DNA of 55,231 nucleotides from an uncultured Deferribacterales bacterium (GCA_947853665.1 CANTXF010000032.1:1-55231), one strand, 5' to 3'; counted from the stretch's first letter, positions 1 through 29,853 are shown. Made by a program: numbers and translations. Notes: generated from the letters alone by a model not told the origin.

Positions 1-132
1 AAAACGTTCGTGGCCGCAGAAAATGAGAAGCTTTATGAAAAAGTTTCCGAGGCTGTGCGCGAGACTACGCTGATAAAGGGTGAATACGGATTTTTAGAAA
101 AACAGAATGAATATCTGAAGAAGCTGAGGTAA
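1..132 (+). CDS. 3' end of an unidentified gene (partial)
   Basis: The first 132 bases read openly in frame 1 and give the last 43 residues of a protein that starts outside the window, ending in TAA at 130-132. The residues are rich in Glu and Lys and look helical; no domain can be recognised. Only two bases separate its stop from the ATG of the next gene, so it is very probably the upstream member of the same glycan operon. It may be the tail of another methyl- or glycosyltransferase, but that is a guess from position. Confidence 0.6.
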   Translation, partial: KTFVAAENEKLYEKVSEAVRETTLIKGEYGFLEKQNEYLKKLR

Positions 133-134
133 CA

Positions 135-2786
135 ATGAATATAGCATTTGATGCCACCGCCCTTATTTCCGACGCTACATATGACAGAGGAATAGGAAAA
201 TATGCCGGACATATCGTTGATGGAATAATAAGAAGGCTTGGCCGTAACGATAAGCTTTATCTTGTTTCTCATAAAGAATCGGACAGACTGAACGGCCTCT
301 ATCCCCTGGCCGAGAAGCGCATAATTTACTTGGGCGACTGTACCGGGGAGGATAATTACGCCTTTGCTTATGGGGGCCTGAAAGAATTGGGGGCATCATC
401 TTTCGAGTTTTTTTTGAAAAGCTGCGATATAGATATTTATTTCTCACCGTGGCATTCGGGAATTCCTCTGGACTTTCTAAAGCGTATAAAAAGCAGATGT
501 GCCGGAATTAAATTCATAGTTACCGTTAATGACCTTATCCCTTATGTTTTTCCTGATGTTTATATGCCTAATGAAGCAATAAGGAAAATGAACGACATGA
601 AAACGGAGATGTTGCGTCATTTTGACCATATAATAACTATATCGGAGGCATCTAAGAACGATATAATTAAATATGCTTTCATACCGGAGGAACGTATAAG
701 CGTTATTTATGACGCGGCAGAGGGGGTGGAGACTTTACCGCTTGATAATTCCTTAGGCGGTTTATTTGCATTGGGCGTAACCAAAGACTACATCCTTTAT
801 ACCGGCGGCGATGATTACAGAAAAAATATAGACGGCTTAATAAAAGCTTTTGCGCTCTGTGATGAGGAGATTAAGTCAAAATATCAGCTTGTAATAGTTT
901 GCAGGCTTTATAAGCCGGAATTCTATAAGTCAATTATAGACGAGTGTAATTTATCAGGCATTGTAATTCTTACGGGATACGTTTCCGACGAAACACTTAG
1001 CGTATTGTATAAAAATGCGTCTTTGTTCATTTTCCCTTCTTTGTACGAAGGCTTTGGCATGCCGGTGTTAGAAGCAATGCAATATAGCCTTCCCGTAATT
1101 GCCGGTGATAATTCCAGCATGCCGGAATTAATCGGTAAAAATGGCGTATATTTTAAGGCGGATAAAGTTAAAGATATTGCGCGCGCAATAGCTCTGGTGC
1201 TTAAAGATGAAAAACTTAAAAACCAACTTACTGTTAACTCTGATGAGAGAGCGGCTCTTTTTTCTTGGGATAAATGCTGCGATGAAACCTTTGCATTATT
1301 TTTATCAGTCTTAAATGAAGGGGAGAAGAAAAAAAATCCTCTTAAAAACAGAAGGATCAAGATTGCATATTTGTCCCCCTTAAATCCGGAGCAATCCGGA
1401 ATATCTGATTATAGTGAGGACCTGATTCCATATCTATCGAAGCATGTGGATATGGATATTTTTACCGTTTCTGCAAATATAGATAATAAATATATTAAAG
1501 AAAATTTTAATATCTTCCCATATGAGGATTTTGAAAATATGCATTCCGGTTATGATACGGTTATATATCAAAACGGCAACAGTCTGCTTCATTGGGAAAT
1601 ACTTAAATATTGCAGGAAATATCCCGGCATAATAGTTATGCATGACTATAACCAGAGGGTGTTTTTTGACTATCTCGGCAACTGGATGAAAAATAGCCCG
1701 GCGGAAGACGGCTTCATTCTGGAAAATTTTGTATTACAGTATGGCCGCAGAGAAGGGGAGAGGCTGTTCCATGAAACAAAAGCCGACCTATTTGGCTCAC
1801 GCCATATTGAATTTAACAGATATGCAGTAGCCAACGCTTTGGGAGTTATAGTCCACAGCGATTTCGCTAAAAACAGGATACTTGCCCATTCTCCCATGCT
1901 GCCGGTAAAAAAAATATATCAAGGAGTTCCTGATTATCCTTCTGATATTCCGGAGGATACAAGAAAAAATCTCCGGGACAAACTCAAGCTCGGCGATAAC
2001 GATATTGTGGCTGCTACCTTTGGTATAATAATACCGGAAAAGAGAGCTAAAGAAATATTAGAGGCCGTCGGCAGATTCGTTTCATCCCATGATGGTGGAA
2101 GCAGGCTTAAACTTGTGATAGCGGGTAAAACCTGGGACGGCTTCGATGATGTATTACGTGAAGCTGATGCCAAATATAATATTAAAAATAATGTTATTGT
2201 TATGGGAAGACTCGAAACTGAGGATTTTATAAATATCATGTATTTATGTGATTTTGCATTTAATTTGCGGTTTCCCACGAATGGTGAGACTTCCGGGTGT
2301 TTGTCCAGATTGCTGGCCATAGGTAAGCCAGTAATAGTTACGGATACGGATGCTTTTTCCGAATACCCTGCTGACGTATGTCTTAAAGTTCCGGGTGGCT
2401 GTGCTGGCGAGGTTGAAGGGATATATAACGCCCTGTGCAGGCTTATAAAAGAACCGGATTTAAGAAAGGCATTGTCAGACAATGCCAGAAAATTTATGAG
2501 AGAAAACTGCAGCCTCGAAAAAGTGTCGGCCGAATATGCTTCATTTATAAAAAGTGTATGTAATCTTAAAAAAGAATTCTACCAACCTTTGGACGGTACC
2601 GTTGCAGGCAGAATAACCGATGAATATATAAATATATTCAAGTCTATTGATAATGTAGAGTTGTTTTGCGAGGCGCTTTTCAGGTTTAACAGTAAATCTG
2701 GGTTGGGGATGGCTGGTGAAAATGCTGAGAAAATCCTGGAAGATATAAACAGGAGTATGCTCATCAGCAGGATTTTGGGAGCTTAG
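135..2786 (+). CDS. Tandem GT4-GT4 glycosyltransferase
   Basis: This 883-residue protein contains two GT-B glycosyltransferases of family 4 in one chain. The first (about residues 1-395) begins with an N-terminal sugar-binding lobe (IAFDATAL, then DRGIGKY) and has the nucleotide-sugar motif SLYEGFGMPVLEAMQ near residue 304, with the E-x7-E pair that contacts the donor. The second (about 408-790) begins with KIAYLSPLNPEQSGISDYS and has a weaker version of the same motif, NGETSGCLSRLLAIGKP. About 90 C-terminal residues have no recognisable domain. It is cytoplasmic and should add two sugars in sequence to a growing glycan; the sugars cannot be told from sequence. It is the first complete gene of a tightly packed plus-strand operon, three bases before the next gene. 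Confidence 0.88.
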   Translation: MNIAFDATALISDATYDRGIGKYAGHIVDGIIRRLGRNDKLYLVSHKESDRLNGLYPLAEKRIIYLGDCTGEDNYAFAYGGLKELGASSFEFFLKSCDIDIYFSPWHSGIPLDFLKRIKSRCAGIKFIVTVNDLIPYVFPDVYMPNEAIRKMNDMKTEMLRHFDHIITISEASKNDIIKYAFIPEERISVIYDAAEGVETLPLDNSLGGLFALGVTKDYILYTGGDDYRKNIDGLIKAFALCDEEIKSKYQLVIVCRLYKPEFYKSIIDECNLSGIVILTGYVSDETLSVLYKNASLFIFPSLYEGFGMPVLEAMQYSLPVIAGDNSSMPELIGKNGVYFKADKVKDIARAIALVLKDEKLKNQLTVNSDERAALFSWDKCCDETFALFLSVLNEGEKKKNPLKNRRIKIAYLSPLNPEQSGISDYSEDLIPYLSKHVDMDIFTVSANIDNKYIKENFNIFPYEDFENMHSGYDTVIYQNGNSLLHWEILKYCRKYPGIIVMHDYNQRVFFDYLGNWMKNSPAEDGFILENFVLQYGRREGERLFHETKADLFGSRHIEFNRYAVANALGVIVHSDFAKNRILAHSPMLPVKKIYQGVPDYPSDIPEDTRKNLRDKLKLGDNDIVAATFGIIIPEKRAKEILEAVGRFVSSHDGGSRLKLVIAGKTWDGFDDVLREADAKYNIKNNVIVMGRLETEDFINIMYLCDFAFNLRFPTNGETSGCLSRLLAIGKPVIVTDTDAFSEYPADVCLKVPGGCAGEVEGIYNALCRLIKEPDLRKALSDNARKFMRENCSLEKVSAEYASFIKSVCNLKKEFYQPLDGTVAGRITDEYINIFKSIDNVELFCEALFRFNSKSGLGMAGENAEKILEDINRSMLISRILGA

Positions 2787-2789
2787 TAG

Positions 2790-4973
2790 ATGAAATTTTC
2801 CATAGTTATCAACACGTTGAATAGAGGATATTTTCTTAAAAGGCTGTTGGATTCTTTGAAACATCTCAACTATAAGGACTTTGAAGTTATAGTTGTAAAC
2901 GGGCCGTCGGCAGATAATACGGAGGAACTGCTCGAACCCTATCTTACGGCTGTTAAATATAGAAAATGCCCGATAGCCAATCTATCAGTATCACGCAATA
3001 TGGGAATAAAAGCTGCTGCGGGAGATATCGTTGCTTTTATTGACGATGACGCCATACCTGATAAGTATTGGCTGGATGACTTGATGGAGGAGTATTTAAA
3101 AAACGCTAAGGTGGGCGGAGTAGGCGGTAAAATATATGACGGCTGCCGCTTGGGGCATTTTCAGTCTCAATTCGTGGCCATAGATAAATGGGGTATTCCT
3201 AAGTCTGATTTTGTCGAACCGCAGGATTTTAACGATCCTGACGGTGAAATGTTTAACATTATGGTAGGCTGTAACTGCTCTTTCAGAAAGGAAGCGCTTT
3301 TAGCAGTGGGAGGGTTTGACGAATATTACGAGTATTTCCATGATGAGAGTGATCTTGCCGTAAGGGTAATCAGGAGTGGATACAGGATAATACAGCATAG
3401 GCAGGCCATAGTGCACCATTCTTTTGCTGCCAGCGATCTTCGCGACAGCGGACGGGTTATAAAAAATTGGTTTCCGATAATGAAAAATACCGTTTATTTC
3501 GGTGTAAAAAATTCTATGATGGCAGATTCTATGCCCCGGAAAGAGCTGGATAAAATTATTAGGGAAAAGTCCTCTGTTTTTAAAAGAAATATGATGAATG
3601 GCCTTAATATTTTGAGTCGTGAATATCGGGAGCGTATGGATTTATATCATAAGGCCTATGACAAGGGCTTTAATGACGGATGCAGCAGTGAACGCCTTTT
3701 AAATTACGATCTTGAGGCGGACAGCCCTTTTAAAAGGTTCGACTCTTCCCTTTTGCCTGAAGCTCTTTCTATTTGTATGTTATGTAGGTCAGACGTACGA
3801 GCGCAACATGGCGGAATTGCGAAATATACTTATGAGCTTGCGACGGCTTATACCAAAATGGGGCATAATGTACATATTATTACTGAAGGCGATGGCATTT
3901 CTTATTTACAGGACGGTATAAATATTCATTTTGCACAATCTGTCGATTTGTCGGGGCTTAGCGAATCGTTGGATAGGTTCGGAGTATGTAAAAGGAATTT
4001 GGAATATTCCTATGGTGTGCTTAAAACGCTTAACATCGTGGATAGAATGTATAATCTTGACGTTGTGGAGTCGGCTCTTTGGGATTATGAATCACTGGCC
4101 GCTTCTTATTTTGTAAGGCCTCCGGTTGTCGTTCGGCTGGAAACGCCCAGCCTTATGGTCGCCGAAACCCAGAATTGGAAAATTAATGACGACCTGCGTA
4201 TGAATGCGGATTTGGAAAAGCTTTTGATGAACCGTGCTTCTGGCCTGATATATATAAGCGATGCCATACGTGAAACCATAGAGGAAAAATATAATATCGA
4301 TTTTACTCAAAAACCGTGCAGCAGAGTGTATTTAGGGATAGAGGAGTATAAAGCGCCGCCTGCTGCCGATAACGCGAAAGTTAAAGATAAAAGTGGCGTT
4401 ACTGTATTTTTTATCGGCCGTTTGGAACGCCGTAAGGGTTTACAAAATATTATAGATGCGCTTCCCTCTATTATGAAAGAATATCCGGATACGGTATTCC
4501 GCATAGCCGGGCAGAATGATATATATGATTCTGCAATAGGCTGTTCCTTTATGGAATATTGCACAAGGAAATACAGCAAAGAAGCATGGTTTAAAAATAT
4601 TAAATTTTTAGGGGTTATCTCCAATGAGGAGAAGGAAAATGAGTTGGAAAACTGCGATATTTTTATATCGCCTTCCTTATACGAATCCTTCGGCCTTATA
4701 TTTGTTGAAGCCATGCGCCATAGAAAGCCTGCAGTTGGATGTTCCGTTGGAGGGATGATGGAAGTTGTCTCCGATGGAAAAACCGGCCTGCTTGTACCGC
4801 CTGATGATACATTAGGGTTTGCCGATGCAGTGAAATGCTTGATAGAAGATAAGGATATGAGATATAATATGGGCAGAGAAGGCTATGCCAGGTACAGGGA
4901 TATGTTTTCTGCGGAAAAATCCGCTTGTGCCAGCGTAGAGTATTATAAAAAAGTTATTGAATACTACGGGTAA
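2790..4973 (+). CDS. GT2-GT4 fusion glycosyltransferase
   Basis: This 727-residue protein joins two folds. Residues 1 to about 230 are a GT-A glycosyltransferase of family 2, with the opening MKFSIVINTLNRGYFLKRLL and the metal-binding acidic cluster FIDDDAIPD near residue 85. Residues from about 320 to the end are a GT-B family 4 enzyme with a glycine-rich acceptor loop (AQHGGIAKYTYELA), the phosphate-binding stretch FFIGRLERRKGL and the donor motif SPSLYESFGLIFVEAM near residue 627. The ATG at 2790 lies three bases after the previous stop, so the two genes are co-transcribed and probably translationally coupled. With its neighbour it offers four glycosyltransferase domains in two proteins, enough for a tetrasaccharide or a repeat unit. 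Donor and acceptor are unknown. Confidence 0.88.
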   Translation: MKFSIVINTLNRGYFLKRLLDSLKHLNYKDFEVIVVNGPSADNTEELLEPYLTAVKYRKCPIANLSVSRNMGIKAAAGDIVAFIDDDAIPDKYWLDDLMEEYLKNAKVGGVGGKIYDGCRLGHFQSQFVAIDKWGIPKSDFVEPQDFNDPDGEMFNIMVGCNCSFRKEALLAVGGFDEYYEYFHDESDLAVRVIRSGYRIIQHRQAIVHHSFAASDLRDSGRVIKNWFPIMKNTVYFGVKNSMMADSMPRKELDKIIREKSSVFKRNMMNGLNILSREYRERMDLYHKAYDKGFNDGCSSERLLNYDLEADSPFKRFDSSLLPEALSICMLCRSDVRAQHGGIAKYTYELATAYTKMGHNVHIITEGDGISYLQDGINIHFAQSVDLSGLSESLDRFGVCKRNLEYSYGVLKTLNIVDRMYNLDVVESALWDYESLAASYFVRPPVVVRLETPSLMVAETQNWKINDDLRMNADLEKLLMNRASGLIYISDAIRETIEEKYNIDFTQKPCSRVYLGIEEYKAPPAADNAKVKDKSGVTVFFIGRLERRKGLQNIIDALPSIMKEYPDTVFRIAGQNDIYDSAIGCSFMEYCTRKYSKEAWFKNIKFLGVISNEEKENELENCDIFISPSLYESFGLIFVEAMRHRKPAVGCSVGGMMEVVSDGKTGLLVPPDDTLGFADAVKCLIEDKDMRYNMGREGYARYRDMFSAEKSACASVEYYKKVIEYYG

Positions 4974-4976
4974 GTT

Positions 4977-6413
4977 ATGGGTGGATATAGGCGAACATCT
5001 GATAGAATGAGGAATATCGCTGCGAAAATCACTGGGATTGCAAAACCTTATAGCTGCATACTGTGTATTGGCTGCCAGGCGGAATGGTTCAGTGCGTATT
5101 ATCGTGGCAGCAGACATTTTAAGGCTGCGTATGTTCCATATTATCCTGCCGAATATGAAATTGATTTCGGCTCCTATGACCTAATATTTATTTATGATAG
5201 CAAATTTATACGGTCGTTGGATAAATTGTTTGAAAAAATAACGGAAGGAACAGATATTATTTTGGATGGAAAGTATGTTTTGCCTTCTGATTGTATATAT
5301 GAGACCGTGCCGATAAATGTTTTCAATGATGCGGCCTATCATCAGATAGGTTCGGTAGTTCGAGACAGCGGAGTTTATAAAGTCCGTATAGCTTCGGGTG
5401 AGAGTGGTTTGGCTCTTTATGGCCCATATGTGGATCTTCCCCCTGGCAGATATACAGTAGTGTTTACTTTTTCAGGATATCCGGCGTTGGAAACTTCCGA
5501 GGAGTTTCCTGTATGCGAAGTTTCCGCCGAATCATGCAGGAATTTAGGGAAGATAGCGTCCAGCATCGTTACATCGCGTGAACTTGCGTTTTCGGATATA
5601 TTTTATCTGAATTTTGAACTGCCAGAGGCAGCCGAAATGGAATTTAAAGTCGTATCTTTCGGCAAGATACCTTTTTCTGTAAATTGCGAGACGGAGCTGC
5701 GCTCTAATTATTCCGCATCTAAAATGTCCCCTCAGTGCCCTGTGACCTATTCTCAGATGGGTGAAGATATAATCATAAAGTTTATATTTGATAACGTAAT
5801 AAAAAGTCCATTGAAATTTTATTTTGATTTTGGTGCGAATTTTCCGGTAAAGCTTAGTAATACATATTATTTTTATTATATGTCCGATGCTTCAGGTGTA
5901 TGTATTGAGACTAATCCTTGTCTTGCCGGAATCTTTGCGGAGGAGCGCCCAAGGGATACGGTACTTAATCTGGGGCTTGTTTCTGAAAATATGCTAAGAG
6001 CCTTTCCTGGTGGTATGGATTTTTATATCCTTGATGCGGACGGGCTTTCGGGTTTTGATAAAGAGCAGGCGAACAGGTATGCCGCCGAAGGGTTGGCAAA
6101 GATTGTGGATGTGGTGAATGTTCCTGTAATAACTATAAGCGCCTTGTTTGAGAAATATTATAATAATGGTGTTGATTTTGTTTCCCTTGATATAGAGGGT
6201 CTGGAGCTGGATATATTAAAAGACCTTGATTTCGAAAAGTACAGGCCAAAAGTTTTTTGCATAGAAACTGTGGATAATGAATGCGGAAAAATTATAAAGA
6301 ACAATCGTATATTCGATTTTATGCTATCAAAAGGCTATGAAATGGTGGCCGATACGTTTATTAATACTATTTTTATTGATGGAATTTATCTAAAAAGGTT
6401 TGGGGAGAAATGA
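4977..6413 (+). CDS. FkbM-family methyltransferase domain protein
   Basis: The C-terminal part (about residues 260-460) resembles FkbM-type SAM-dependent methyltransferases, which O-methylate sugars: it has QMGEDIIIKFIF, the motif-I-like YFDFGAN near residue 283, the acidic GVCIETNP and the late motif VSLDIEGLELDILKDL near residue 404. The glycine-rich loop after DFGAN is altered (DFGANFPVKLSN instead of a loop with a second Gly), so activity is not certain. The first 250 residues contain a short Cys-rich lobe and a beta-rich stretch with no recognised family. The gene sits between glycosyltransferases and a membrane protein and overlaps the latter by four bases (ATGA), so a role in methylating the glycan, perhaps as a chain cap, fits the context. 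Confidence 0.75.
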   Translation: MGGYRRTSDRMRNIAAKITGIAKPYSCILCIGCQAEWFSAYYRGSRHFKAAYVPYYPAEYEIDFGSYDLIFIYDSKFIRSLDKLFEKITEGTDIILDGKYVLPSDCIYETVPINVFNDAAYHQIGSVVRDSGVYKVRIASGESGLALYGPYVDLPPGRYTVVFTFSGYPALETSEEFPVCEVSAESCRNLGKIASSIVTSRELAFSDIFYLNFELPEAAEMEFKVVSFGKIPFSVNCETELRSNYSASKMSPQCPVTYSQMGEDIIIKFIFDNVIKSPLKFYFDFGANFPVKLSNTYYFYYMSDASGVCIETNPCLAGIFAEERPRDTVLNLGLVSENMLRAFPGGMDFYILDADGLSGFDKEQANRYAAEGLAKIVDVVNVPVITISALFEKYYNNGVDFVSLDIEGLELDILKDLDFEKYRPKVFCIETVDNECGKIIKNNRIFDFMLSKGYEMVADTFINTIFIDGIYLKRFGEK

Positions 6414-8320
6414 AATACAGGTTGGATAAAATTTACAGCAATAAAAATATCATAATATGCATATTTTTATTGCTTTTACTTTATATTTACTATTTACATG
6501 CTTATGCTTATGCTTATGCTTATGCTCAGGTGCATTCCGACCATGTTTCACCCTTGCTTATGGCTCAGGATATACTTAACGGCAACTTACTGCTTGAAGG
6601 CTGGCACGGATCCACTTCATCATTTTTTATAGGTGTGTATTCATTTACCTTGTTGCCTTATATCCTTTTTGGGATGACGTACGAGTTTTTCTATTATTAC
6701 CCGGCTCTTATAATGTCTCTAATTGCCGTATGCGCATTTTTCCTTTCTTATAAATGTTTGGACAAACAAACTATATCTGTTTCAAATATTTTTATTTTAT
6801 CAGCGCTTTTCCTAATCCCGCCTAAAGGTATTTTTTCTACGGCCATATGTCAGCCTTTTTACCATAATGAAACCTATCTTATGATTTTATTGATATTGCT
6901 TATTATGGATAAGGCAGTCGTATATGGCAAAGGCCGCCTAATATTTTTTGGGGCTGCGACTTTGCTTTTTTCTTTTTGGGCGTCGGCAGATACTTTTGCC
7001 ATTTATGTTTTTGTCATACCTATGGCGGTACTTATTCTTTGGAGATATTTTTTTTACCGTATTGACACACGTTATCTTTATTTTCTCGGATGTATTGCTG
7101 CCGGTACGGCCGCTGCGAGGTTAACTGAGAAAATTGTAGCCAAAGTAGGGGGAATACAATATACGGGCTTTGCTGCGCCTTCATTTACTTCTTTAAATTC
7201 GGTTCCGGCTAGGTTTTTAGATTCTGTAGGATATATATTGGATGTATTTAATGCAAATTTCTTTGGAGAAGAACTTTCTTCGTCTTTACTTTTGCTTTTG
7301 TCATTTTTTGTATTGTCTTTTTCTGTATATGCTGTTTCTCATATTATTAGAAATTTTAAAAAATATGATATAGTCACACAATTCCTGGTTTTCTCTCCCA
7401 TTATCTTTTTTATGAGTTTTTTAGTTGCGGATGTTCCATTGACTAATAGATATTTCATATTTATTCCCATAGCTTTTTTTATCCTTACGGCAAGAATAGG
7501 TATTTTATACATTATAAAAGAAAAATTTGGTTTCGGTAACGGGGTTCGTACATATATAGCATTAGCATTCGGTTGCGGATTGCTTTTGCTCAACGCGTCG
7601 GCAAATTTTATGCCTATTTCAGCGAAACCGGAGAATATTGAAAATCCAGTGGCGAAAGTATTGATTGATAAGGGGCTCAAAAGAGGTTATGCAGAATTTT
7701 GGAAAGCTAACGTCATGAGCTTTTACACTAAAAATAAGTCTAAAGTGACGGCAGTAGCGCAGATTTCACGACCTAACTACTGGCTTGGGAAAAAGAGCTG
7801 GTATGAAGAACCGGCCAACTTCATAATAGCGTCTTCCGACGAAACCCCGTCATATATAGAATATTATGGAGAGCCTCGGCATATATATCCGGTAGATAAT
7901 GTTCTTCTGGGGGATCATAGTTATAACCGAATAAATATTCTTGAATACGATTATAACCTTTCTGAGGGAATTGTTGCGAAGGGGCTTAATCTGTTTGCCT
8001 GCAATAACTGCGAAAAAACGAGCAGATCCGCTGTATTGAATAAGGACGGTATATTATATGGGCCTTACGGTACTTTCAAAAAAGGCATTTACCGTATAGA
8101 GTTTAAAGGGAAAAACTTGGCTGGTGTCTCTTTTGACGCGGGTATATTTTCAAATGGAATGCAATTCTATGAGCTGAAGGATAAGATAGTACGCGACGAT
8201 GAGATATCTTATACTATTGAACTTGAAAAGGATGCGTATAACGTAGAGTTTAGAATTATAAACCGTTCTGACGAACCTGTTGTTATAGAATCGGCTGGCT
8301 GGAGGTTGTTAAATGAGTAA
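6410..8320 (+). CDS. Polytopic membrane protein, GT-C glycosyltransferase-like
   Basis: This 636-residue protein starts with a hydrophobic helix (IIICIFLLLLLYIYYL) followed by an extracytoplasmic loop with the acidic-aromatic stretch AQVHSDHVSPLLMAQDIL. At least nine further hydrophobic segments run to about residue 400, and then a soluble, probably periplasmic, C-terminal domain of about 230 residues. This is the layout of GT-C enzymes, which use polyprenyl-phosphate sugars on the outer face of the inner membrane; the loop acid after TM1 would be the catalytic candidate. No named family can be assigned. The start ATG overlaps the stop of the methyltransferase gene (ATGA). A GCTTAT repeat lies in the TM1 to loop junction. 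The next gene encodes a second protein of the same general type. Confidence 0.7.
   Translation: MKYRLDKIYSNKNIIICIFLLLLLYIYYLHAYAYAYAYAQVHSDHVSPLLMAQDILNGNLLLEGWHGSTSSFFIGVYSFTLLPYILFGMTYEFFYYYPALIMSLIAVCAFFLSYKCLDKQTISVSNIFILSALFLIPPKGIFSTAICQPFYHNETYLMILLILLIMDKAVVYGKGRLIFFGAATLLFSFWASADTFAIYVFVIPMAVLILWRYFFYRIDTRYLYFLGCIAAGTAAARLTEKIVAKVGGIQYTGFAAPSFTSLNSVPARFLDSVGYILDVFNANFFGEELSSSLLLLLSFFVLSFSVYAVSHIIRNFKKYDIVTQFLVFSPIIFFMSFLVADVPLTNRYFIFIPIAFFILTARIGILYIIKEKFGFGNGVRTYIALAFGCGLLLLNASANFMPISAKPENIENPVAKVLIDKGLKRGYAEFWKANVMSFYTKNKSKVTAVAQISRPNYWLGKKSWYEEPANFIIASSDETPSYIEYYGEPRHIYPVDNVLLGDHSYNRINILEYDYNLSEGIVAKGLNLFACNNCEKTSRSAVLNKDGILYGPYGTFKKGIYRIEFKGKNLAGVSFDAGIFSNGMQFYELKDKIVRDDEISYTIELEKDAYNVEFRIINRSDEPVVIESAGWRLLNE
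6500..6526 (+). repeat. In-frame hexanucleotide repeat (GCTTAT)4.5
   Basis: Four complete GCTTAT units and a final GCT lie inside the membrane-protein gene and encode alternating Ala-Tyr directly after TM1. Each unit is six bases, so gain or loss by slippage keeps the frame and changes the protein by two residues per unit. Confidence 0.85.
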
Positions 8321-9517
8321 AGATATTTTTTCCGCATTTTCTGTGAAGCTTGAAACTCCTTTGTATATGTTTTTTGCCGTTATAGTGTTTTGCTTGCAGA
8401 TAGCTGTTGCTACGACAATGACTGGGGGGGGGAGCCTAATGATTACACTTTTCATCTGCCTCTGGCTTTACGCATGGATATGGAGCAGGGGTTTGGGGCT
8501 TTTATTCGCACATATCCCTATTTTCTGTGGCATTTATCCGTTAAACTTATAAGCTTTTTGGGCATTCCCGGAGGCTATGCCGCCGGTATAGCTAACGGTT
8601 TATATACCTTACTTAGTATGTTTTTTCTCAATAAACTCCTGCTCTATTTTTTAAAAGATATTGACAAAAATATAGTTACAGTTCTTACTGTAATACTTAC
8701 TTTTGTGTCCGCCATATATGTGCCCTGGTTTAATAGCTGGATTTATTTGGGTCAAGGGTCTATAAATATATATCACAATCCCTCTTATTTTGCCGTTAAG
8801 CCTTTTTCGCTGCTTGCTTTTTATCTGTTTGTAAAAATGCTTGATAAGCGTGCAAGCTCAGGCGTTTCTTTTTTTGATTATGCCGCATTTGCTTTTGCTT
8901 TGTTTATGAGTGTTGTCGCTAAGCCTTCTTTTATACAGGTATTTTTTTTCGGAGTGGCTCTGACTTTGGTGCTTATAGTCATACAGAAAAGGGATTTCCG
9001 CTTTGCATCAGGCGTAATGCTGGCTTTCTGCCCGTCGCTTTTATGGATGGCTATGCAGTTTTTTACTTTTTTTCATATAGAAGGTTTGGATATGGTGGGG
9101 GGAAAGTATAACGTCTATATTAAGCTAATAATGGATTCCCCTCATACACGCAGTGTGCTATTTTCCGCATTAATCTTCCTTGCGTTCCCTGTTTGGGCTA
9201 CTTTGTCTGATATAAAAGCTTTGAAAAACGATTACCCGTTTATTCTGGCCTGGATATGTGTTTTTATCGGTTTTGCGCAAATGCTTCTTTTGCATGAAGC
9301 TGGGCGTGAAGAACATGGCAACTTTGGATGGGGATATATGAATGTTGCGTGCCTTTTGTGGGCGGTATCCATTGCCTCTTTTATAAAAAAATATGCTTAT
9401 TCTGATGTCCATGCGGGAAACCTTACGGCTAAGATAGGGTTTTCATTATTATTTTTACATTTAATATCGGGTGTTTATTATCTGCGCTGTGTGCTCTATA
9501 CCGCGCATTTCGCATAA
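8313..9517 (+). CDS. Phase-variable polytopic membrane protein (GT-C-like), frame OFF in this sequence
   Basis: Two overlapping open frames make one gene. The upstream frame starts at ATG 8313, overlapping the previous gene's stop, and encodes a first membrane helix (MFFAVIVFCLQIAVATTM). It meets a run of nine G at 8424-8432 and stops at 8552. The other frame continues from the G run to 9517 with EPNDYTFHLPLALRMDMEQG and about eight further hydrophobic segments. A run of 7 or 10 G would join the two frames into one protein of about 400 residues whose acidic post-TM1 loop resembles that of the neighbouring GT-C-like protein. As sequenced, only a 79-residue truncated product is made. The run lies where a contingency locus would be expected, between TM1 and the body of the protein. 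A simple pseudogene or a homopolymer sequencing error are the alternatives. Confidence 0.78.
8424..8432 (+). repeat. Poly-G tract G9 (frame-breaking)
   Basis: Nine consecutive G follow codon ACT of the upstream frame. In-frame passage into the long downstream frame needs a length of 3k+1 (7 or 10), so G9 is the OFF length. It is one of three G9 runs within 5.1 kb in an otherwise AT-rich region. Confidence 0.92.
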
Positions 9518-9532
9518 TACATAAGGAGGAAG

Positions 9533-10672
9533 ATGATGAAAGTTTCTTTTAATAAACCATGTCATACGGGTTTGGAAGAAAGCTATGTGATTCAAGCGAT
9601 AAAAAATAACAAGCTGTCGGGTGATGGCCCGTTCAATAAGAAATGTGCCGAATTCCTGACTTCATATTTTGGTTCGGATACTAAGGCCGTGTATATAACG
9701 CCTTCATGCACGGCGGCCAGTGAAATGGCTTCTATTATTCTAAATATGGAGAAAGGGGATGAGGTTATAATGCCCTCCTTTACGTTTACTTCTACCGCGA
9801 ATGCTGTTGCCGTATATGGAGGCGTACCGGTTTTTATTGATGTGCGTCCTGATACTATGAATATTGATGAAAACCTTATAGAACAGGCGATTTCTAAAAA
9901 AACTAAAGCCATTGTTCCTGTACATTACGCGGGAGTCGGCTGCGAGATGGACAAAATACTTTACATTGCAAAAAAATACGGACTTGCCGTTATTGAAGAT
10001 AATGCCCAAGGACTTTTCGCTTACTACAAGAATAAGCCATTGGGGTCTTTTGGTGATATGTCTGCCGTATCTTTCCATGAAACTAAAAATGTGATCGCAG
10101 GAGAAGGTGGAGCTCTTGTTATTAACTCGGACAATATAAAAGAACGGGCGGAGATAATAAGGGAAAAAGGTACAGACAGAAGCAAGTTTTTTCGCGGAGA
10201 GGTGGATAAATATTCCTGGATAGATAAAGGTTCCTCCTACCTCCTTGGCGAACTGGGAGCAGCATACCTTCTCGCTCAACTGGAAAAAGGTACAGAAATT
10301 ACCAATAATAGGCTTGCATCTTGGCATTTTTATTATGATGCTCTGGAAGATCTTGAGAAAAAAGGTTTTTTGAGGCGCCCGGTGGTTCCGTCTGCCTGCA
10401 CGCATAACGGCCATATCTTTTATATACTGCTGGATTGTCTTAAAACAAGAGAGAGCCTGCGAGAACATTTGATCCTCAGGGAAATTTCTGCCGTATCTCA
10501 TTATGTGCCTCTTCATTCTTCAAAAGCGGGGCTGAGTTTCGGGCGCACTGCTTCGAAAATGGATGTTACCGATGCCCATTCTGAAATGCTTTTAAGGCTT
10601 CCCATGTATTATGGTTTGGGAGATGATGAAAAAAACCGGGTGGTGGATGGTATCAATAGTTTTTTTATCTGA
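9533..10672 (+). CDS. wecE: WecE/RffA-like dTDP-4-amino-4,6-dideoxy-sugar transaminase
   Basis: This 379-residue protein belongs to the DegT/DnrJ/EryC1 PLP-dependent sugar aminotransferases and follows Escherichia coli WecE closely from end to end: SGDGPFNKKC near the start, TPSCTAASEMA, GDEVIMPSFTFTSTANA, VDVRPDTMNIDE, VPVHYAGVGCEMD, and the catalytic lysine in FHETKN at residue 185. It converts a dTDP-4-keto-6-deoxyhexose to the 4-amino sugar with glutamate as amino donor; the E. coli product is dTDP-Fuc4N. The start has a strong AAGGAGG six to seven bases upstream. An acyltransferase resembling WecD lies 2.3 kb downstream, so the island probably makes an N-acylated 4-amino sugar. RmlA and RmlB, which would make the precursor, are not in the window. 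Confidence 0.92.
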   Translation: MMKVSFNKPCHTGLEESYVIQAIKNNKLSGDGPFNKKCAEFLTSYFGSDTKAVYITPSCTAASEMASIILNMEKGDEVIMPSFTFTSTANAVAVYGGVPVFIDVRPDTMNIDENLIEQAISKKTKAIVPVHYAGVGCEMDKILYIAKKYGLAVIEDNAQGLFAYYKNKPLGSFGDMSAVSFHETKNVIAGEGGALVINSDNIKERAEIIREKGTDRSKFFRGEVDKYSWIDKGSSYLLGELGAAYLLAQLEKGTEITNNRLASWHFYYDALEDLEKKGFLRRPVVPSACTHNGHIFYILLDCLKTRESLREHLILREISAVSHYVPLHSSKAGLSFGRTASKMDVTDAHSEMLLRLPMYYGLGDDEKNRVVDGINSFFI

Positions 10673-10765
10673 CGTTATATCTGAAATTGGCTGGCTTTAC
10701 TGTGGTTTTGGTGATTGCTGCCTGCGCGATATATTTTGTGTTGCTGATGAGCGGCGGAGTAACGT

Positions 10766-11964
10766 ATGAAAAAAATAATGGTGCTAGGGGCAGGCGTCTA
10801 TCAGCTGCCTTTAATCAGAAAAATCCGTGAAATGGGGTATTATTCGATTGTTGTAAGTATTCCGGGGAAATATCCGGGGTTTTCGGCTGCGGATAAGATA
10901 TACTATGAAAATACGACAAATACGGATTCGGTATTGAAAATCGCTATGGAAGAAAAAATAGATGCGGTGTGCCTGTGCGGTACGGATGTGGCGATGAACA
11001 CGCTCGGCTCCATCTGTGATGCGATGGGACTCTGCGGGCCGTCAAAATCTGCGGTGGAGGCCGCTTCCTATAAAGTGGCTATGAAAGATTCTTTTAAAAA
11101 AGGGGATGTTCGTTCTCCCGCATTCGCGGCGGTTTCATTATCATCTGCGTTGAGTGATATTGAAGAAATTTGCGATGATATCGGATACCCCGTTATTTTT
11201 AAAGCGGAGGATTCTTCTGGGAGCAGAGGGATTATAAAAGTTTCCTGTAAAGCAGATGTCCTTAATGGCAAAGAATGTGTATATAAGGTTACGAGGTCGG
11301 ATAAATTTATAATAGAAAAATTTATTGACGGATGGGAATTTGGTGCGCAGGCTTTCATCTGCGGCGGTGAAATACGGATGTATATGCCCCATGGCGACTA
11401 TGTTTTTCATGGAAATACCGGTGTGCCGGTAGGGCACTATATACCTTTAGGCCTTGATGAGGGCGTCTATAATGACAGTCTGGAGCAGACTAGGTGTTCG
11501 GTACAGTCCTGCGGTTTGGACAACTGCGCTGTAAATATGGACTTTATTCTGAGCGGCGGCAAAGTATATGTGCTGGAAATTGGCGCGCGAGCCGGCGGCA
11601 CATGCCTGCCTGAGTTGGTTTCTGCTTATTATGGTATAGATTACTATAAATATATCATAAACCTGGCGCTTGGTAACGGGGGGGGGCCCTGCTCGCTGAT
11701 TCGAAGTGCGTGTATCCGGCAATAAGCTACTTGATAACCTCGAACCGCAGCGGTATATTAAAGGAGCTGATTTTACCTGAAATATCCTTGGAGCATGAGG
11801 TTGCTATAGATTATATTCCTGGAGAAAAAATCAGAAGTTTCATGGTGGGTTCTGACAGACTGGGCCATATAATAGTAAAGGGAGGCCCTGCGTATGACAC
11901 GGTGGACAAACTAAAATCTTATATAGACAATATTCTGTTAAAGATAAGATTAAAGGTAAGCTGA
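10766..11964 (+). CDS. Phase-variable ATP-grasp ligase, frame OFF in this sequence
   Basis: The first 319 codons (10766-11725) encode an ATP-grasp protein: a Rossmann-like N-terminus (KIMVLGAGVYQLPLIRKI), the ATP-binding lobe (IFKAEDSSGSRGI and FIIEKFIDGWEFGAQ), and the metal-binding end of the core (LEIGARAGGTCLPELV). At nine G (11678-11686) the frame ends in an unrelated 18-residue tail. The shifted frame carries on to 11964 with PAISYLITSNRSGILKEL and VKGGPAYDTVDKL, which is a normal ATP-grasp C-terminal lobe. A run of 7 or 10 G restores a protein of about 399 residues. ATP-grasp enzymes join a carboxylate to an amine using ATP; beside a 4-amino-sugar transaminase the obvious idea is an amino acid or other acid joined to the sugar nitrogen. 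That substrate is inferred from position only. Confidence 0.8.
11678..11686 (+). repeat. Poly-G tract G9 (frame-breaking)
   Basis: Nine consecutive G follow codon AAC of the ATP-grasp frame. The frame that encodes the true C-terminus needs 3k+1 G (7 or 10), so this copy is in the OFF length. Confidence 0.92.
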
Positions 11965-12036
11965 TAATCATATATATTTAATGTAATATCTAGGTTATTT
12001 AAGCCGGCGGATTTGAGACGCCGTAATTGGTGAGAA

Positions 12037-12954
12037 ATGAAGATATCTGTTGTTATACCATGCTATAACTCGGAACAGTCGATAAAGCAGGTTGTCGATT
12101 TGGTATCCGATGAGATGGAGAAGCTGGGTTATGATGTGGAATTTGTGCTTATAAATGATAATTCCAAGGACGGAACGTTTTCCGTAATAAGAGAAATATG
12201 CAGGAAGGATTCCCGGGTAAAGGGTTTGAGCTTAGCGAAGAATTTTGGGCAGCACAATGCTATAATCGCAGGGCTTCATTATGTTACTGGCGATTGTGTC
12301 ATAGGCATGGATGATGATTTACAGACGCATCCATCCCAATTAAATAAGCTGATAAGCAAATATATGGAAGGTTACGATATTGTGTTCGGAGTATATCCCG
12401 ACAGGAAATTTCCGTGGTTCCGGAACATTGGCAGCCGTTTTAATAGCTGGACGGTAAAAACCCTTACCGACAGGCCTAAGGAAGTTAAAACCAGTAGCTT
12501 TTGGATAGCCAAGCGTTTTATATGTGATTACGTTATAGAGTATCCAAATCCTTATCCGTATATATCCGGTTTATTTTTCAGAATAACGAAAAATGCGGTC
12601 AGTGTTGAAGTTGAGCATTTTAAACGTCAGTTTGGAAAGTCTAATTATAATTTAAAAGCTTTGCTTAAGCTATGGTCGTCTATAACAAATTTTTCCATAG
12701 TTCCTTTAAGAGCCGCAATGGTGTTGGGTATGCTTTTCAGCGCGGCGGGGGGCATAGGCGCGATTGCTGTCGTAGTAAATAAATTACTTAATCCCGAAAT
12801 GGCACTGGGATGGAGTTCTGTTATGGTGACGATGCTCGTGCTGTCCGGTATCAATTTTTTCTGCCTTGGTATGATAGGCGAGTATGTCGGAAGATTATTT
12901 ATGTCCAGTAATAAAGCTCCGCAATACGCTGTAAGAGAAAAATTAAATTGCTGA
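12037..12954 (+). CDS. ArnC/GtrB-like polyprenyl-phosphate glycosyltransferase
   Basis: This 305-residue protein has a family 2 GT-A domain (MKISVVIPCYNSEQSI, LINDNSKDGT, and the metal site MDDDLQTHP near residue 93) followed by two C-terminal membrane helices (about residues 228-250 and 262-290). This is the architecture of ArnC, GtrB and dolichol-phosphate-mannose synthase-like enzymes, which move a sugar from a nucleotide onto undecaprenyl phosphate on the cytoplasmic face. The internal stretch FGQHNAIIAGL and the ending GEYVGRLF are typical. Between the transaminase and the acyltransferase it would take the modified 4-amino sugar onto the lipid carrier. About 70 bases without a gene separate it from the ATP-grasp gene, and a GTGAG sequence lies just before the ATG. 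Confidence 0.88.
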   Translation: MKISVVIPCYNSEQSIKQVVDLVSDEMEKLGYDVEFVLINDNSKDGTFSVIREICRKDSRVKGLSLAKNFGQHNAIIAGLHYVTGDCVIGMDDDLQTHPSQLNKLISKYMEGYDIVFGVYPDRKFPWFRNIGSRFNSWTVKTLTDRPKEVKTSSFWIAKRFICDYVIEYPNPYPYISGLFFRITKNAVSVEVEHFKRQFGKSNYNLKALLKLWSSITNFSIVPLRAAMVLGMLFSAAGGIGAIAVVVNKLLNPEMALGWSSVMVTMLVLSGINFFCLGMIGEYVGRLFMSSNKAPQYAVREKLNC

Positions 12955-12993
12955 ATAAATGTTCAGCCGTGATTGCCATTTCAGAGGGATCAA

Positions 12994-13758
12994 GTGCATA
13001 TAATATATAACGAAATAGACTCGGATATTTTCGGCAATGTAGTTGCTGATATAAAAGATTTTGACGCCAATGAGGATTTTGCTCGTTTTGAGATGAAGTA
13101 TATGGCTGATATGAAACCTTTTTATTGCCTTGTCAAACTCCCCTGCGGCAATATTTCATCTGCCCATATATTGGAAAAACATGGATTCAAATTCATGGAA
13201 TTTCAGTTGAAATATACGAATATTCCTGAAAGCTATGAAGATGATCTTGAGGCTGCGGGATATGGCTATTCTGAAGTATCGTCTCTGACTGATTTGGATG
13301 AAGTGATAAATATTGCGGGCACTACATTTGACAACGACAGGGTAAGGATAGACTCCGACCTTACTAAAATGTATGATTTTGATATCGCTTCTTTAAGATA
13401 TGCATCTTATATAAAAAGAAGCTATATGAGGGATGATCAGAGAGTTTATAAAATTTATCGAAAAAAATGCGGGACGGTCGTCGGATTTTTTTCATATTTT
13501 ATCAGCGGGGGGGGGAAAGAGGCATCTGTACTCCTTGGGGGAATTTCAAAAACAGCCAAAGGGCAGGGATTGGGCCATATTTATATAAAGTCTTATCACA
13601 GCCAGATGCATATGTCGGGCATAAAGTGTTTTCAGAGTTGTATATCGGCCTGCAACCTGCCAATACTGAATCTTAATATACGCAATTACCATGGCAAAGT
13701 TACCGATGCGTTTATTGTAATGAGAAAACTTTATTCTGCAAATTTCCACCAAAAGTAG
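12994..13758 (+). CDS. WecD-like GNAT sugar N-acyltransferase, phase-variable (frame ON)
   Basis: This protein of about 254 residues resembles WecD/RffC, the acetyltransferase that finishes TDP-Fuc4NAc. The first half contains SAHILEKHGFKFMEFQL, typical of that family. The second half is a GNAT core with the acyl-CoA pyrophosphate loop GQGLG and a final YHGKVTDAFIVM. Nine G at 13507-13515 encode Gly-Gly-Gly just before the core strand ASVLLGGIS; the frame is open as sequenced. Loss or gain of one or two G would truncate the protein before the CoA-binding loop and abolish activity. I chose GTG 12994 because AGAGGGA lies seven bases upstream; TTG 12973 in the same frame is the alternative. It should acylate the amino group made by the WecE-like enzyme. 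Confidence 0.8.
   Translation: MHIIYNEIDSDIFGNVVADIKDFDANEDFARFEMKYMADMKPFYCLVKLPCGNISSAHILEKHGFKFMEFQLKYTNIPESYEDDLEAAGYGYSEVSSLTDLDEVINIAGTTFDNDRVRIDSDLTKMYDFDIASLRYASYIKRSYMRDDQRVYKIYRKKCGTVVGFFSYFISGGGKEASVLLGGISKTAKGQGLGHIYIKSYHSQMHMSGIKCFQSCISACNLPILNLNIRNYHGKVTDAFIVMRKLYSANFHQK
13507..13515 (+). repeat. Poly-G tract G9 (in-frame, ON)
   Basis: Nine consecutive G fill three glycine codons of the acyltransferase gene. Unlike the two other runs, length 3k is here the ON length. Slippage would remove the C-terminal acyl-CoA-binding half. Confidence 0.9.
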
Positions 13759-20928: not shown

Positions 20929-23655
20929 CTAAGGCCTGTCCGCGTTTACGAACACCACAGCGTTTTTTGAAAAACTGCCTCCGGCCATTTCCATCATATC
21001 GTGCAGCAGCTGCTTCACATATATGGGATTATGGGAGTAGGCGCCTTTATCCAGCACGGAAAGCAGGAGTATATTATGCGCCGCCCCGTAAAGGTTGCGC
21101 CCGGCCTGTCCTTCACCCCAGGCGGTAAATTTCGTTTCCGGGTCGGAGGCTTTTACGAAGGATTTTCCCGTCAGCTTCAGGTCGTATTTCTTTTCAAATG
21201 CGGTTTTTACTTCGTTCAACGCCGCCGCGTAGCCTTTCCTGTTTGCTTCCGCTTTGCCGGCGTGCTCCGTACCGTCCTGTCCGTGGCAGCCTTTTTCCGC
21301 GCAGCCCAGCTCTATGCGTTTTTCCGTCATATTGATGCCCAGTATCTTTTTGGGCGCGTCTTTCTCTGCTCCCGGATACGGCTCCTCTATAAGTGCTGCT
21401 CCGGAATGGCTTTTTTCGTCAAAATCGTGGCAGTCGGCGCAGGCGTAAATATATACTTTTTCTTCCTGTTCCGCTTCTTCCGGGGTTTTCATCAGACCGC
21501 CCTTTTTCATAAGGTTGGTTTTATGCCTGGGAAACCCGTTTGACGCGTACTCTTTACCGGGGAATTCGTAAGCCGCCCCGCCCCACATTACCGACGCCGC
21601 CGGGCCGTAATGGGCTGCCTGCTTTTTTCTCTCGAAGGGCATTTTAAGGCGCTCGTCGCCGTCTGCGAAGGCGTTTATCATGCGGCCGGTTCTCGCTCCG
21701 TCGTGGCAGTTCCAGCATAATATCGACGAGCCTGTTTTTTGCAGATTTTCCGCGCTTATAACGTCCCGCGTTTTATCGGCCCAGCTTTCGCCCGCCCATG
21801 AGAAAGAGAAAGTTTCGTCTTTCCATTTTCTGGCTTCGCCCGGCTTATACGTTTCCTTGCCGTTCAGCGTTTCTTTTATCGTAAGGTCGTGGCATGCGAT
21901 GCAGTACACAGGCTCCCCTCCCGTTCCGTTAAGCATTGACGTAACGTTGTCAAGAGCGTCCGGGTTGTCTGCGCCTGCGATTATTTTGGCCCCTTCATAT
22001 CCGCTGTGGCATTTCATGCAGCCTGCTTCAAAGTCGTCCTTGCTGAAAGCCTCGCTTTTATAATCCGCATGGCCCGACAAGGCCCAGGTCTGGGTGAGCT
22101 TTATCAATTCGTCCTGCGCTTCTTCTTTTCCGTCCGCGCCGCGGAATTTGGAGTTAAGATGCGGGTCGTGGCATCCGGAGCAGGGCCTTGCCGCGGCGGC
22201 GTTTATGTTATAGCCTTCCACCCGCTCGCGTTTCAGTATATATTCCTTTCCGTCCGCCTGGGCCATTTCGGATACTATCACTCCTTTAAAATGCGTGTCT
22301 ATTATGGTTTTTTCCCTGTCCATAACCATGCGCCAGGGCTCGTCCGCAAACAATGGCTCTTCGTATCCGCCGTCAAAGTTCAGATGGGCTCCCTGCTTTC
22401 TTTCGTAGTCGAAGGTGTTCGCCTCCGACACGTCCGGTATGCCATCTTTTATTGTTGCGGCTCGCAGGGAAAGGTCGTCCGGATTTTCCATACCCGTTGC
22501 GTTGTCGTGGCTGTCCCTTGCCAGATAATAATCGAAGCGGTTGTTTTTTGCGTCCCATTCATAGTCCAGCTTTACGGCATGGCATTGGGTGCAGAGGGCA
22601 AATTCCTCCGAAAACACCCTTACGGGAGCGCCCAGGGGCTTGTTTTTATCGTCCGTCAAAGGTTTTCCGAGGGAGTCCTGCCGCACGTGGACGGCTTTTC
22701 TTGTAAACCCGCCGGAATGGACGTCGTGGCAGGTCTGGCAGAGCAGTCCGGAGCCTTGTTTATCGTCCCGCAGCAGGGTAAGCCCGGCCCGCGCGGGAGG
22801 AACCGGCGTTTCGAGAAACGCTCCGGAGTTGTCGTCTATGCGGCTTGCATAGCTCCTGCCGCTCTCCGCGCCGGAAAAATACGGCTTCTGGGCAAAATAT
22901 TCCTGATACGACAAATTCTGGTGGCATGCCAGACAGGAGGCCGTCGGGAAATATTCCGCGCCTTCGTAATTTTTTATAAGGCCCCTTTCTTTGGTTTTTT
23001 CGTAAAATTTTTCAGTAAGGGTGCCGGTGGCGTGGGCGCTTATCTTAAAATTCGAGGCAATATTTACGGCCAGCGGGTTTTTGCCGGAGGCGGAACAGTT
23101 TTCGGGCTTATCGTGGCAGGATGCGCAGTCGCCGGCGTTTAATGCCGCTTTCGTATAGTGTTTTCCGCCGCCGGAACCGTGGCAGCCTATGCAGGTTATA
23201 AGAGCCGCTCCTTCCTTACGGGCGGCTTCGGAAAAAACTGGCGATTTCATCATGGCTTCCGTGTCTGAGGAAAGGCCGTCTGCCGTTTTCGCGTCGTGGC
23301 ATTCAAGGCAGGAACCGTCCTTCGCTTTTTTCAGCTCCGCGTAAGAAACAGAGCCCTTCGTATGGCTTGAGGAAGAAACGCCCAAGCCTTGGGTAAAGTG
23401 GCATTTCAGGCAGTCGGCGGAGGTTTCGGGCTCCGTTTTCAGGTACGGATTCGCGGTGGCTGGGCCGGTAAACGGTATAAACGAGCCTTCCGCTCCTTCC
23501 ATGGCCGGGTTGGACGAATAGATTTTTACCCACACGCCTGCGGCCTCGCCCGGCCGGTCTGCGGGCCGTCCGACCCCGCAGGCGGGGGAAATAATGTAAA
23601 TGACGGCAAAAAGGGCGGCGAACGACGCCGCTCCCCAAAGCAGTTTGTTTTTCAT
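20929..23655 (-). CDS. Large multihaem cytochrome c (13 haem motifs)
   Basis: This 908-residue exported cytochrome has an N-terminal signal or anchor (MKNKLLWGAASFAALFAVIY). It carries twelve CxxCH haem sites (CLKCH, CLECH, CIGCH, CASCH, CLACH, CQTCH, CTQCH, CSGCH, CMKCH, CIACH, CWNCH, CADCH) and one longer site CAEKGCH (C-x4-CH). I chose ATG 23655 over the upstream in-frame start at 23739 because it begins the signal peptide and has AGGGAGAAG just upstream. It would carry electrons in the periplasm or on the outer membrane. It is read divergently from the beta-barrel and molybdoenzyme operon, which suggests shared regulation and one electron route. The family cannot be named from sequence alone; the haem number exceeds that of MtrA-type decahaem proteins. 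Confidence 0.88.
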   Translation of the reverse strand: MKNKLLWGAASFAALFAVIYIISPACGVGRPADRPGEAAGVWVKIYSSNPAMEGAEGSFIPFTGPATANPYLKTEPETSADCLKCHFTQGLGVSSSSHTKGSVSYAELKKAKDGSCLECHDAKTADGLSSDTEAMMKSPVFSEAARKEGAALITCIGCHGSGGGKHYTKAALNAGDCASCHDKPENCSASGKNPLAVNIASNFKISAHATGTLTEKFYEKTKERGLIKNYEGAEYFPTASCLACHQNLSYQEYFAQKPYFSGAESGRSYASRIDDNSGAFLETPVPPARAGLTLLRDDKQGSGLLCQTCHDVHSGGFTRKAVHVRQDSLGKPLTDDKNKPLGAPVRVFSEEFALCTQCHAVKLDYEWDAKNNRFDYYLARDSHDNATGMENPDDLSLRAATIKDGIPDVSEANTFDYERKQGAHLNFDGGYEEPLFADEPWRMVMDREKTIIDTHFKGVIVSEMAQADGKEYILKRERVEGYNINAAAARPCSGCHDPHLNSKFRGADGKEEAQDELIKLTQTWALSGHADYKSEAFSKDDFEAGCMKCHSGYEGAKIIAGADNPDALDNVTSMLNGTGGEPVYCIACHDLTIKETLNGKETYKPGEARKWKDETFSFSWAGESWADKTRDVISAENLQKTGSSILCWNCHDGARTGRMINAFADGDERLKMPFERKKQAAHYGPAASVMWGGAAYEFPGKEYASNGFPRHKTNLMKKGGLMKTPEEAEQEEKVYIYACADCHDFDEKSHSGAALIEEPYPGAEKDAPKKILGINMTEKRIELGCAEKGCHGQDGTEHAGKAEANRKGYAAALNEVKTAFEKKYDLKLTGKSFVKASDPETKFTAWGEGQAGRNLYGAAHNILLLSVLDKGAYSHNPIYVKQLLHDMMEMAGGSFSKNAVVFVNADRP

Positions 23656-23883
23656 ATCGGCTTCTCCCTTTCCGGTATAAGTCTCCGGAAAACGGAAAAA
23701 GGTTACTGGGGCAAAGGATATTTTTTCCGCTGAATACAAACAGGAAGATTAATTGTTTTATGAATGTAATATATTTTAAACAATAATATTAAAACATATC
23801 TATAGATAATAGATTGATAAATATAAAATAATAGACCGCAGATAAAGTTGGACAAAAAAATATCCATAAGATAAATTTCACAT

Positions 23884-29190: not shown

Positions 29191-29202
29191 GGAGGAGCAG
29201 CA

Positions 29203-29853
29203 ATGGCTAACGTAGTAAAACAATACGCATTCTATTTCGACCAGACCCGCTGTATGGGCTGCCAGACCTGCGTGGTAGCCTGCAAGGACTGGAACAACGT
29301 AAAACCCGGCAAGGCTAAATGGCGCAACCTGCACGACGTTGAGGAAGGCGCTTTTCCCAACGTAAGCGTCTTTATGGCCCTTTATGCCTGCAACCACTGC
29401 GAAAATCCTGCCTGCGTGGCGGCGTGCCCCTATCAGGCCATATATAAACGCTCTTCCGACGGCATAGTGGTGGTGGACAGGGACAAATGCCAGGGAGCCG
29501 CCTCATGCAAAGGAGCCTGTCCTTACGACGCGCCCCAGTTTGCGGACGACTATCAGGAGGAGCCTACGCTTCCCCTGACCACGGCCACAAAGGGGCATAC
29601 CATGCAGAAATGCGATATGTGCTGGGGCAGGCTCGCCGCCGGCATGAAGCCCGCCTGCGTGGGCTCCTGCCTTACAAGGGCCCTTGATTTCGGTACTCTG
29701 GAGGAGCTTACGGCCAGATATCCTGACGCCCAGACCCTGAAAAACGGCGGAAAGCTGAAGGGCTTTCCTTCGGACGACAAAGGCAGCGACGGCCAGATCC
29801 TCGCTACGCCTACGGGGCCGTCCTTTCTGTTTAAGCCGAGGCCGGAGCAATAA
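29203..29853 (+). CDS. DmsB-like four-cluster ferredoxin subunit
   Basis: This 216-residue protein is the electron-transfer subunit of the molybdoenzyme. It has the usual four Cys groups: CMGCQTCVVAC, CNHCENPACVAACP, then CQGAASCKGACP, and CDMCWGRLAAGMKPACVGSC. In the third group the second cysteine is replaced by Ala99 (C96, A99, C102, C106). The same position carries Trp in NarH, where the site holds a [3Fe-4S] cluster. There is no signal peptide, so it must ride through Tat with the catalytic subunit. AAGGAGGAG lies just upstream of its ATG and the gap to the catalytic gene is 12 bases. No DmsC-type membrane subunit follows. Confidence 0.92.
   Translation: MANVVKQYAFYFDQTRCMGCQTCVVACKDWNNVKPGKAKWRNLHDVEEGAFPNVSVFMALYACNHCENPACVAACPYQAIYKRSSDGIVVVDRDKCQGAASCKGACPYDAPQFADDYQEEPTLPLTTATKGHTMQKCDMCWGRLAAGMKPACVGSCLTRALDFGTLEELTARYPDAQTLKNGGKLKGFPSDDKGSDGQILATPTGPSFLFKPRPEQ

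Follow-up and report, generated by a model that had tools for sequence, protein, structure and literature searches.

Probable poly-G contingency loci in an amino-sugar locus and in respiratory-type reductase genes of Mucispirillaceae

Results

The window analysed here is a stretch of 55,231 nucleotides (GCA_947853665.1, CANTXF010000032.1:1-55231) from an uncultured Deferribacterales bacterium, and it carries three runs of exactly nine G (G9 tracts) within a locus of putative amino-sugar genes. The tracts were found on the plus strand at positions 8424-8432, 11678-11686 and 13507-13515, and a recount reproduced all the coordinates given for them in a first-pass annotation. They lie, respectively, in the genes of a membrane protein (8313-9517), an ATP-grasp ligase (10766-11964) and an acyltransferase (12973-13758), all on the plus strand. 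With nine G as assembled, the open reading frame (ORF) of the membrane protein, starting at 8313, meets a stop at 8550, and another frame is open from 8435 to 9514. The ATP-grasp ORF that starts at 10766 also stops early, with a second frame open to 11964. The acyltransferase ORF is unbroken and in frame. The first-pass assignment of two genes as out of frame and one as in frame therefore agrees with the ORFs.

No other G/C runs of at least seven were present in the window, where the run-length series was G5 47, G6 6, G7 0, G8 0 and G9 3. Since three or more G9 runs were also obtained in 9 of 100 dinucleotide shuffles of the whole window, their number is weak evidence when taken alone. The clustering of the three tracts within 5.1 kb was considered as evidence and discarded, as random placement of 73 tracts in 2.43 Mb gives it a probability of about 0.5. 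Strong evidence against chance was provided instead by the gap in the length series together with the tract set of the whole genome.

The genome that contains the window (G000; 2.43 Mb, 68 contigs, 97% complete) holds 73 G/C runs of at least eight, 64 of which reach at least nine. Even with an expectation of 30%, the binomial probability of this proportion is about 1e-24. In 361 kb around the tracts the lengths were G5 311, G6 28, G7 0, G8 9, G9 60, G10 3 and G11 1; these stretches were picked for containing tracts, and the result for runs of at least nine among those of at least eight is independent of that choice. Hence, the over-representation of homopolymers beyond composition that marks contingency loci was observed, with a mode at G9 and a gap at G7. 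A second mark, placement where a change of one unit shifts the frame of a gene, was observed at the 47 tracts that lie inside recognisable genes. The G was on the coding strand in 43 of these 47, with 22 tracts in frame and 25 out of frame. The latter are not ordinary glycine (GGG) codons, since such codons would be in frame.

The poly-G tracts are not special to the amino-sugar pathway, as they reach reductases, chemoreceptors and regulators. By Pfam, the tract-bearing signalling genes comprise three chemoreceptors, a sensor kinase, a GGDEF/EAL protein, an HD-domain protein and regulators of the LuxR, GntR and PadR types. Those of transport and the surface comprise sulfatases, a sulfate symporter, an ABC permease, two GT2 glycosyltransferases, an MBOAT acyltransferase and lipoproteins. 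Further tracts were located where an FdtA isomerase gene adjoins that of a hexapeptide transferase, and in a multihaem cytochrome. Some tracts that lie outside clear genes or near their ends may be promoter switches (L135, L146, L147, L159, L163, L178, L181 and L188).

The most striking targets were paralogous reductases of about 900 amino acids, widely divergent from each other, in which 12 tracts were located at or just after the leader. PF00384 (molybdopterin oxidoreductase) exceeded its cut-off at all 12 loci. The combination of this domain with a twin-arginine translocation (TAT) leader places the 12 genes, by sequence, in the dimethyl sulfoxide (DMSO) reductase family. In the four that were scanned, the nearest model was DmsA/YnfE, with scores below its curated cut-off. 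The same layout was seen in 11 of the 12, namely a twin-arginine motif, a lipobox-like Cys, a stretch similar to Ser-Lys-Asp-Asp-Gly-Gly-Glu and, last, the G run. The twelfth (L194; L167 is the same gene) has its run within the leader. Six tracts were in frame and six out of frame; an in-frame tract would encode a Gly tether, where extra residues are likely to be tolerated.

Other paralogues of these reductases are free of tracts. One of them, which serves as an internal control, is a TAT-leader molybdopterin reductase of the window itself (L208; 25966-29190, plus strand; PF00384, TAT_signal), in whose leader region the G runs reach three at most. Another, L213, has a Gly stretch whose G run is interrupted (GGCGGCGGGGGCGGA), which would fit a locked or precursor form of the tract. 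An Fe-S subunit is found beside the tract-free reductase, within 25966-29853, and the window also encodes an MtrC-like multihaem cytochrome (20929-23739). The presence of these three is consistent with a respiratory lifestyle. Elsewhere in the genome, an MtrC-like multihaem cytochrome gene (L136, G000:C4) carries an out-of-frame tract at 8514-8522, near its start, and may be another respiratory target.

The distribution of the tracts was then followed in relatives. A species primer pair with a 135-bp product has been described for ASF 457 (PMC8401286), a strain with three 16S copies (PMC9600240). Among 20 relatives, the pair had exact matches in genome G002 alone, three of them, each of 135 bp. 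From these primer sites and the copy number, G002 was assigned to Mucispirillum schaedleri. The genome of the window belongs to a different genus of Mucispirillaceae (Deferribacterota), sister to Mucispirillum.

M. schaedleri G002 has 49 runs of at least eight, also with a mode of nine; in the stretches read (31% G+C) the lengths were G6 5, G7 2, G8 6, G9 31, G10 8 and G11 2. In the other Mucispirillum genomes 13-40 runs of at least nine were counted, with one exception (2 runs) that is 57% complete. The number falls to 0-4 in a third genus and to 0-5 in most of the order. G037 and G046, also from the order and class, have 65 and 29 such runs and could be separate cases.

Tract positions were also conserved. 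In the MBOAT orthologues of G000 and Mucispirillum the tract is kept at codon 71-75 while the flanking codons vary, and in four M. schaedleri reductases it is kept after the lipobox. Furthermore, L226 of M. schaedleri and L272 of G010, two orthologous reductase genes with 85% DNA identity, differ by a single G within the tract and align without gaps around it, L226 having G9 and being out of frame and L272 having G10 and being in frame. A difference in tract length between relatives, a third mark of contingency loci, was thus observed in one pair only, which concerns a reductase and not a gene of the window and includes a draft assembly (G010).

Additional targets were noted in both genera. 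A second amino-sugar locus, L180 (G000:C63), encodes an FdtA isomerase, a hexapeptide transferase and an MBOAT protein, with tracts at 2506-2514 and 5528-5536. The homologues of both of its tract genes in M. schaedleri (L237; 69% and 67% identical) are also tract-bearing. Chemoreceptor-type genes with tracts were found at L133, L140, L143 and, in M. schaedleri, L223; in the last three the tract lies no more than about 15 codons from the start.

As regards the locus of the window, it lies in a block of low G+C, 39.9% at positions 1-13758 compared with 50.2% in the remaining window. The value around the tracts is 40.8%, and the initial description of this region as AT-rich is fair relative to the sequence after 13758. 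The block opens with tract-free genes, on the plus strand at 135-8320, which by Pfam encode a GT4 protein, a GT2-GT4 fusion, an FkbM methyltransferase and a 636-amino-acid membrane protein. The tract-bearing membrane protein is followed by a tract-free DegT-family aminotransferase of the WecE/RffA type (9533-10672, plus strand). Its scores of 542 bits with NF008687 (cut-off 375) and 529 bits with TIGR02379 (cut-off 434.85) identify it, by sequence, as a transaminase of the dTDP-4-amino-4,6-dideoxygalactose type. The proposal of a 4-amino-sugar pathway is thereby upheld, the locus being one for a 4-amino-4,6-dideoxy sugar.

The two halves of the ATP-grasp gene matched ATP-grasp_4 (4.6e-6) and, at the C-terminal end, LAL_C2 (5e-5). 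Between this gene and the acyltransferase lies a tract-free GT2 glycosyltransferase (12037-12954, plus strand), which scored 172 bits with PgfS and 162 bits with ArnC of NCBIfam, each under its cut-off. PgfS and ArnC load sugars onto polyprenyl phosphate. The acyltransferase, GNAT-like, matched NF008212 (WecD) weakly over most of its length (E 0.0017), and its 18 bits fell short of the 219 of the curated WecD equivalog cut-off. A phmmer search of the PDB found no meaningful match to it, and a single-sequence AlphaFold run gave no usable model, with a predicted local distance difference test (pLDDT) value of 40. A GNAT-like ORF 25% identical to it lies between homologues of the GT2 and WecE genes in Salibacterium (L054). 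Taken together, the WecE-type aminotransferase, the ATP-grasp ligase, the ArnC/PgfS-like GT2, a probable GT-C transferase and the WecD-like acyltransferase resemble a dTDP-Fuc4N-type cassette.

The aminotransferase, GT2 and ATP-grasp genes were found together in many gut Clostridia, and the genes split in the window are single ORFs elsewhere. The ATP-grasp homologues L076, L106 and L127 (44-53% identical) are one ORF across the tract position. Both parts of the membrane protein are likewise joined in its homologues (L060, L075, L071 and others), which have an N-terminal transmembrane segment (TM1) and then, directly after the tract position, a conserved (S/N)D motif. A structure model of the membrane protein was built from an alignment of 12 sequences (pLDDT 59; predicted template modelling score 0.66). 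When it was compared with the PDB by Foldseek, the best 11 matches were all GT-C enzymes (PglB, AglB, AftA/B and DPY19), with weak E values of 0.01-0.4. These matches are suggestive, and the membrane protein is a probable GT-C glycosyltransferase according to the model. GT-C enzymes have a catalytic acidic residue in the first external loop. For this reason the tract at 8424, located between TM1 and the (S/N)D motif of that loop, would sit just before the catalytic acid. Of the gene roles initially proposed, those of the membrane protein and the ATP-grasp ligase were strengthened by the homologues and the fold match, and that of the acyltransferase depends on the weak WecD match. No orthologue of the cassette was found in the Mucispirillum genomes, the best aminotransferase being about 30% identical.

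Discussion

It is very probable that the three G9 runs of the window are simple-sequence contingency loci belonging to a genome-wide poly-G phasome, acting on surface glycans and respiration, in gut bacteria of the Deferribacterota. During replication, a G run would gain or lose a unit and the downstream codons would shift in or out of frame, giving a heritable and reversible on/off switch of each protein. The contingency-type nature first suggested for the tracts is supported by the length mode, the frame positions, the conserved sites and the L226/L272 pair. The independent switching of the three genes, the up to eight surface forms and the flagellin target of the initial proposal are hypothetical.

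With the tract lengths of the assembled consensus, two of the proteins, the GT-C transferase and the ATP-grasp ligase, would be off and the WecD-like acyltransferase on. In the proposed pathway, WecE-type transamination would yield a dTDP-4-amino-4,6-dideoxy sugar, which the acyltransferase would N-acylate. The ATP-grasp enzyme may attach an amino acid or a similar acid, and the GT2 would load the sugar onto polyprenyl phosphate, from which it would be passed to a surface glycan by the GT-C enzyme. The three switches would set whether, and in which form, the sugar is displayed. The phasome of about 73 tracts, conserved in Mucispirillum, would also control TAT-exported molybdopterin reductases, at least 12 in number, and would do so in most cases by way of a tract placed in the Gly-rich tether that follows the lipobox. 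It is reasonably likely that Mucispirillaceae bet-hedge anaerobic respiration in this way: through individual poly-G switching of the TAT lipoprotein reductases, cells within a clone would differ in the electron acceptors open to them, and glycans, chemoreceptors and signalling proteins would be phase-variable as well.

Several points weigh against the interpretation of the tracts as switches. The evidence of switching comes from assembled consensus sequences, and slippage itself is inferred. G000 and most of its relatives are multi-contig assemblies, so that a consensus tract count may be wrong by one unit. Of the 73 tracts, about 26 fall near the ends of genes or in no clear gene. Intact MutS1 and MutL are encoded and may lower slippage rates; their presence also rules out the loss of mismatch repair, which was considered as a cause of the tracts.

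The same genes could be read as decaying pseudogenes, in which the G runs are relics or accidents. The 25 out-of-frame tracts among the 47 would fit decay, and so would the low G+C of the glycan block, which may have been recently acquired. However, apart from the tract nothing interrupts the split genes before their ends (304 + 91 amino acids in the ATP-grasp gene and 37 + 360 in the membrane-protein gene), the broken reductases retain an open frame of 840-860 amino acids, and the tracts are found at the same positions in different species and paralogues, which makes this explanation very unlikely. Still less likely is that homopolymer errors of sequencing or assembly have broken genes that are in frame, the tracts being merely Gly-Gly-Gly linkers. 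In-frame tracts do encode Gly tethers, and with consensus lengths possibly off by one, individual on/off assignments could be wrong. Nevertheless, errors could not produce 73 tracts with a mode of nine, and a biological cause is needed for the coding-strand bias, the rarity of tracts in related families and the positions conserved in independent genomes, which include the single-contig M. schaedleri. As for programmed frameshifting, in which transcriptional or ribosomal slippage would make both products from one DNA length and no heritable switching would occur, long homopolymers can promote such slippage in general. Nonetheless, orthologues differ in DNA length, and the nine-G length distribution matches that of the replication-slippage phasomes of Campylobacter (PMC6321876), leaving this as the least probable of the three.

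Slippage of poly-G in replication is established in Campylobacter, where 9G and 10G account for 53% and 26% of tracts (PMC6321876). The phasomes described there with PhasomeIt share with the present set a coding-strand poly-G, a mode of nine, a location mostly in genes and mixed on/off states. They differ in that the set reported here belongs to another phylum, coexists with MutS1 and MutL and targets a bank of 12 molybdopterin reductases. Helicobacter bizzozeronii has a similar number of tracts (71 homopolymers of at least nine) and comparable targets, including glycosyltransferase, chemoreceptor and sulfatase-domain membrane protein genes; unlike the genome studied here, it lacks multiple mismatch repair genes, and its target table contains no molybdopterin reductase family (PMC3234257). 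The glycan locus shares a WecE-type aminotransferase and a WecD-like acyltransferase with the Fuc4NAc pathway (WecE-WecD) of the enterobacterial common antigen type, but adds the ATP-grasp ligase, the ArnC/PgfS-like GT2 and the probable GT-C transferase, and has poly-G tracts in three genes.

In M. schaedleri, a DMSO-reductase-like system is up-regulated in inflammation (PMC5285517). That species and the bacterium of the window are of the same bacterial family, and both have DMSO/tetrathionate-reductase-like molybdoenzymes. The main text of that genome paper mentions neither phase variation nor homopolymers. Searches of the open PubMed Central literature, with subscription journals and supplements outside their scope, turned up neither an account of phase variation for Mucispirillum or Deferribacterota nor a report of phase-variable molybdopterin reductases. 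Hence, the mechanism is already known, and the host lineage and the reductase targets provisionally appear to be new.

The Deferribacterota lineage with roughly 40-70 poly-G tracts includes M. schaedleri, a standard commensal of gnotobiotic mice, and respiratory-type enzymes are among the targets of its tracts. If this reading is true, clonal gut populations of these bacteria would vary cell by cell in respiration and in surface sugars.

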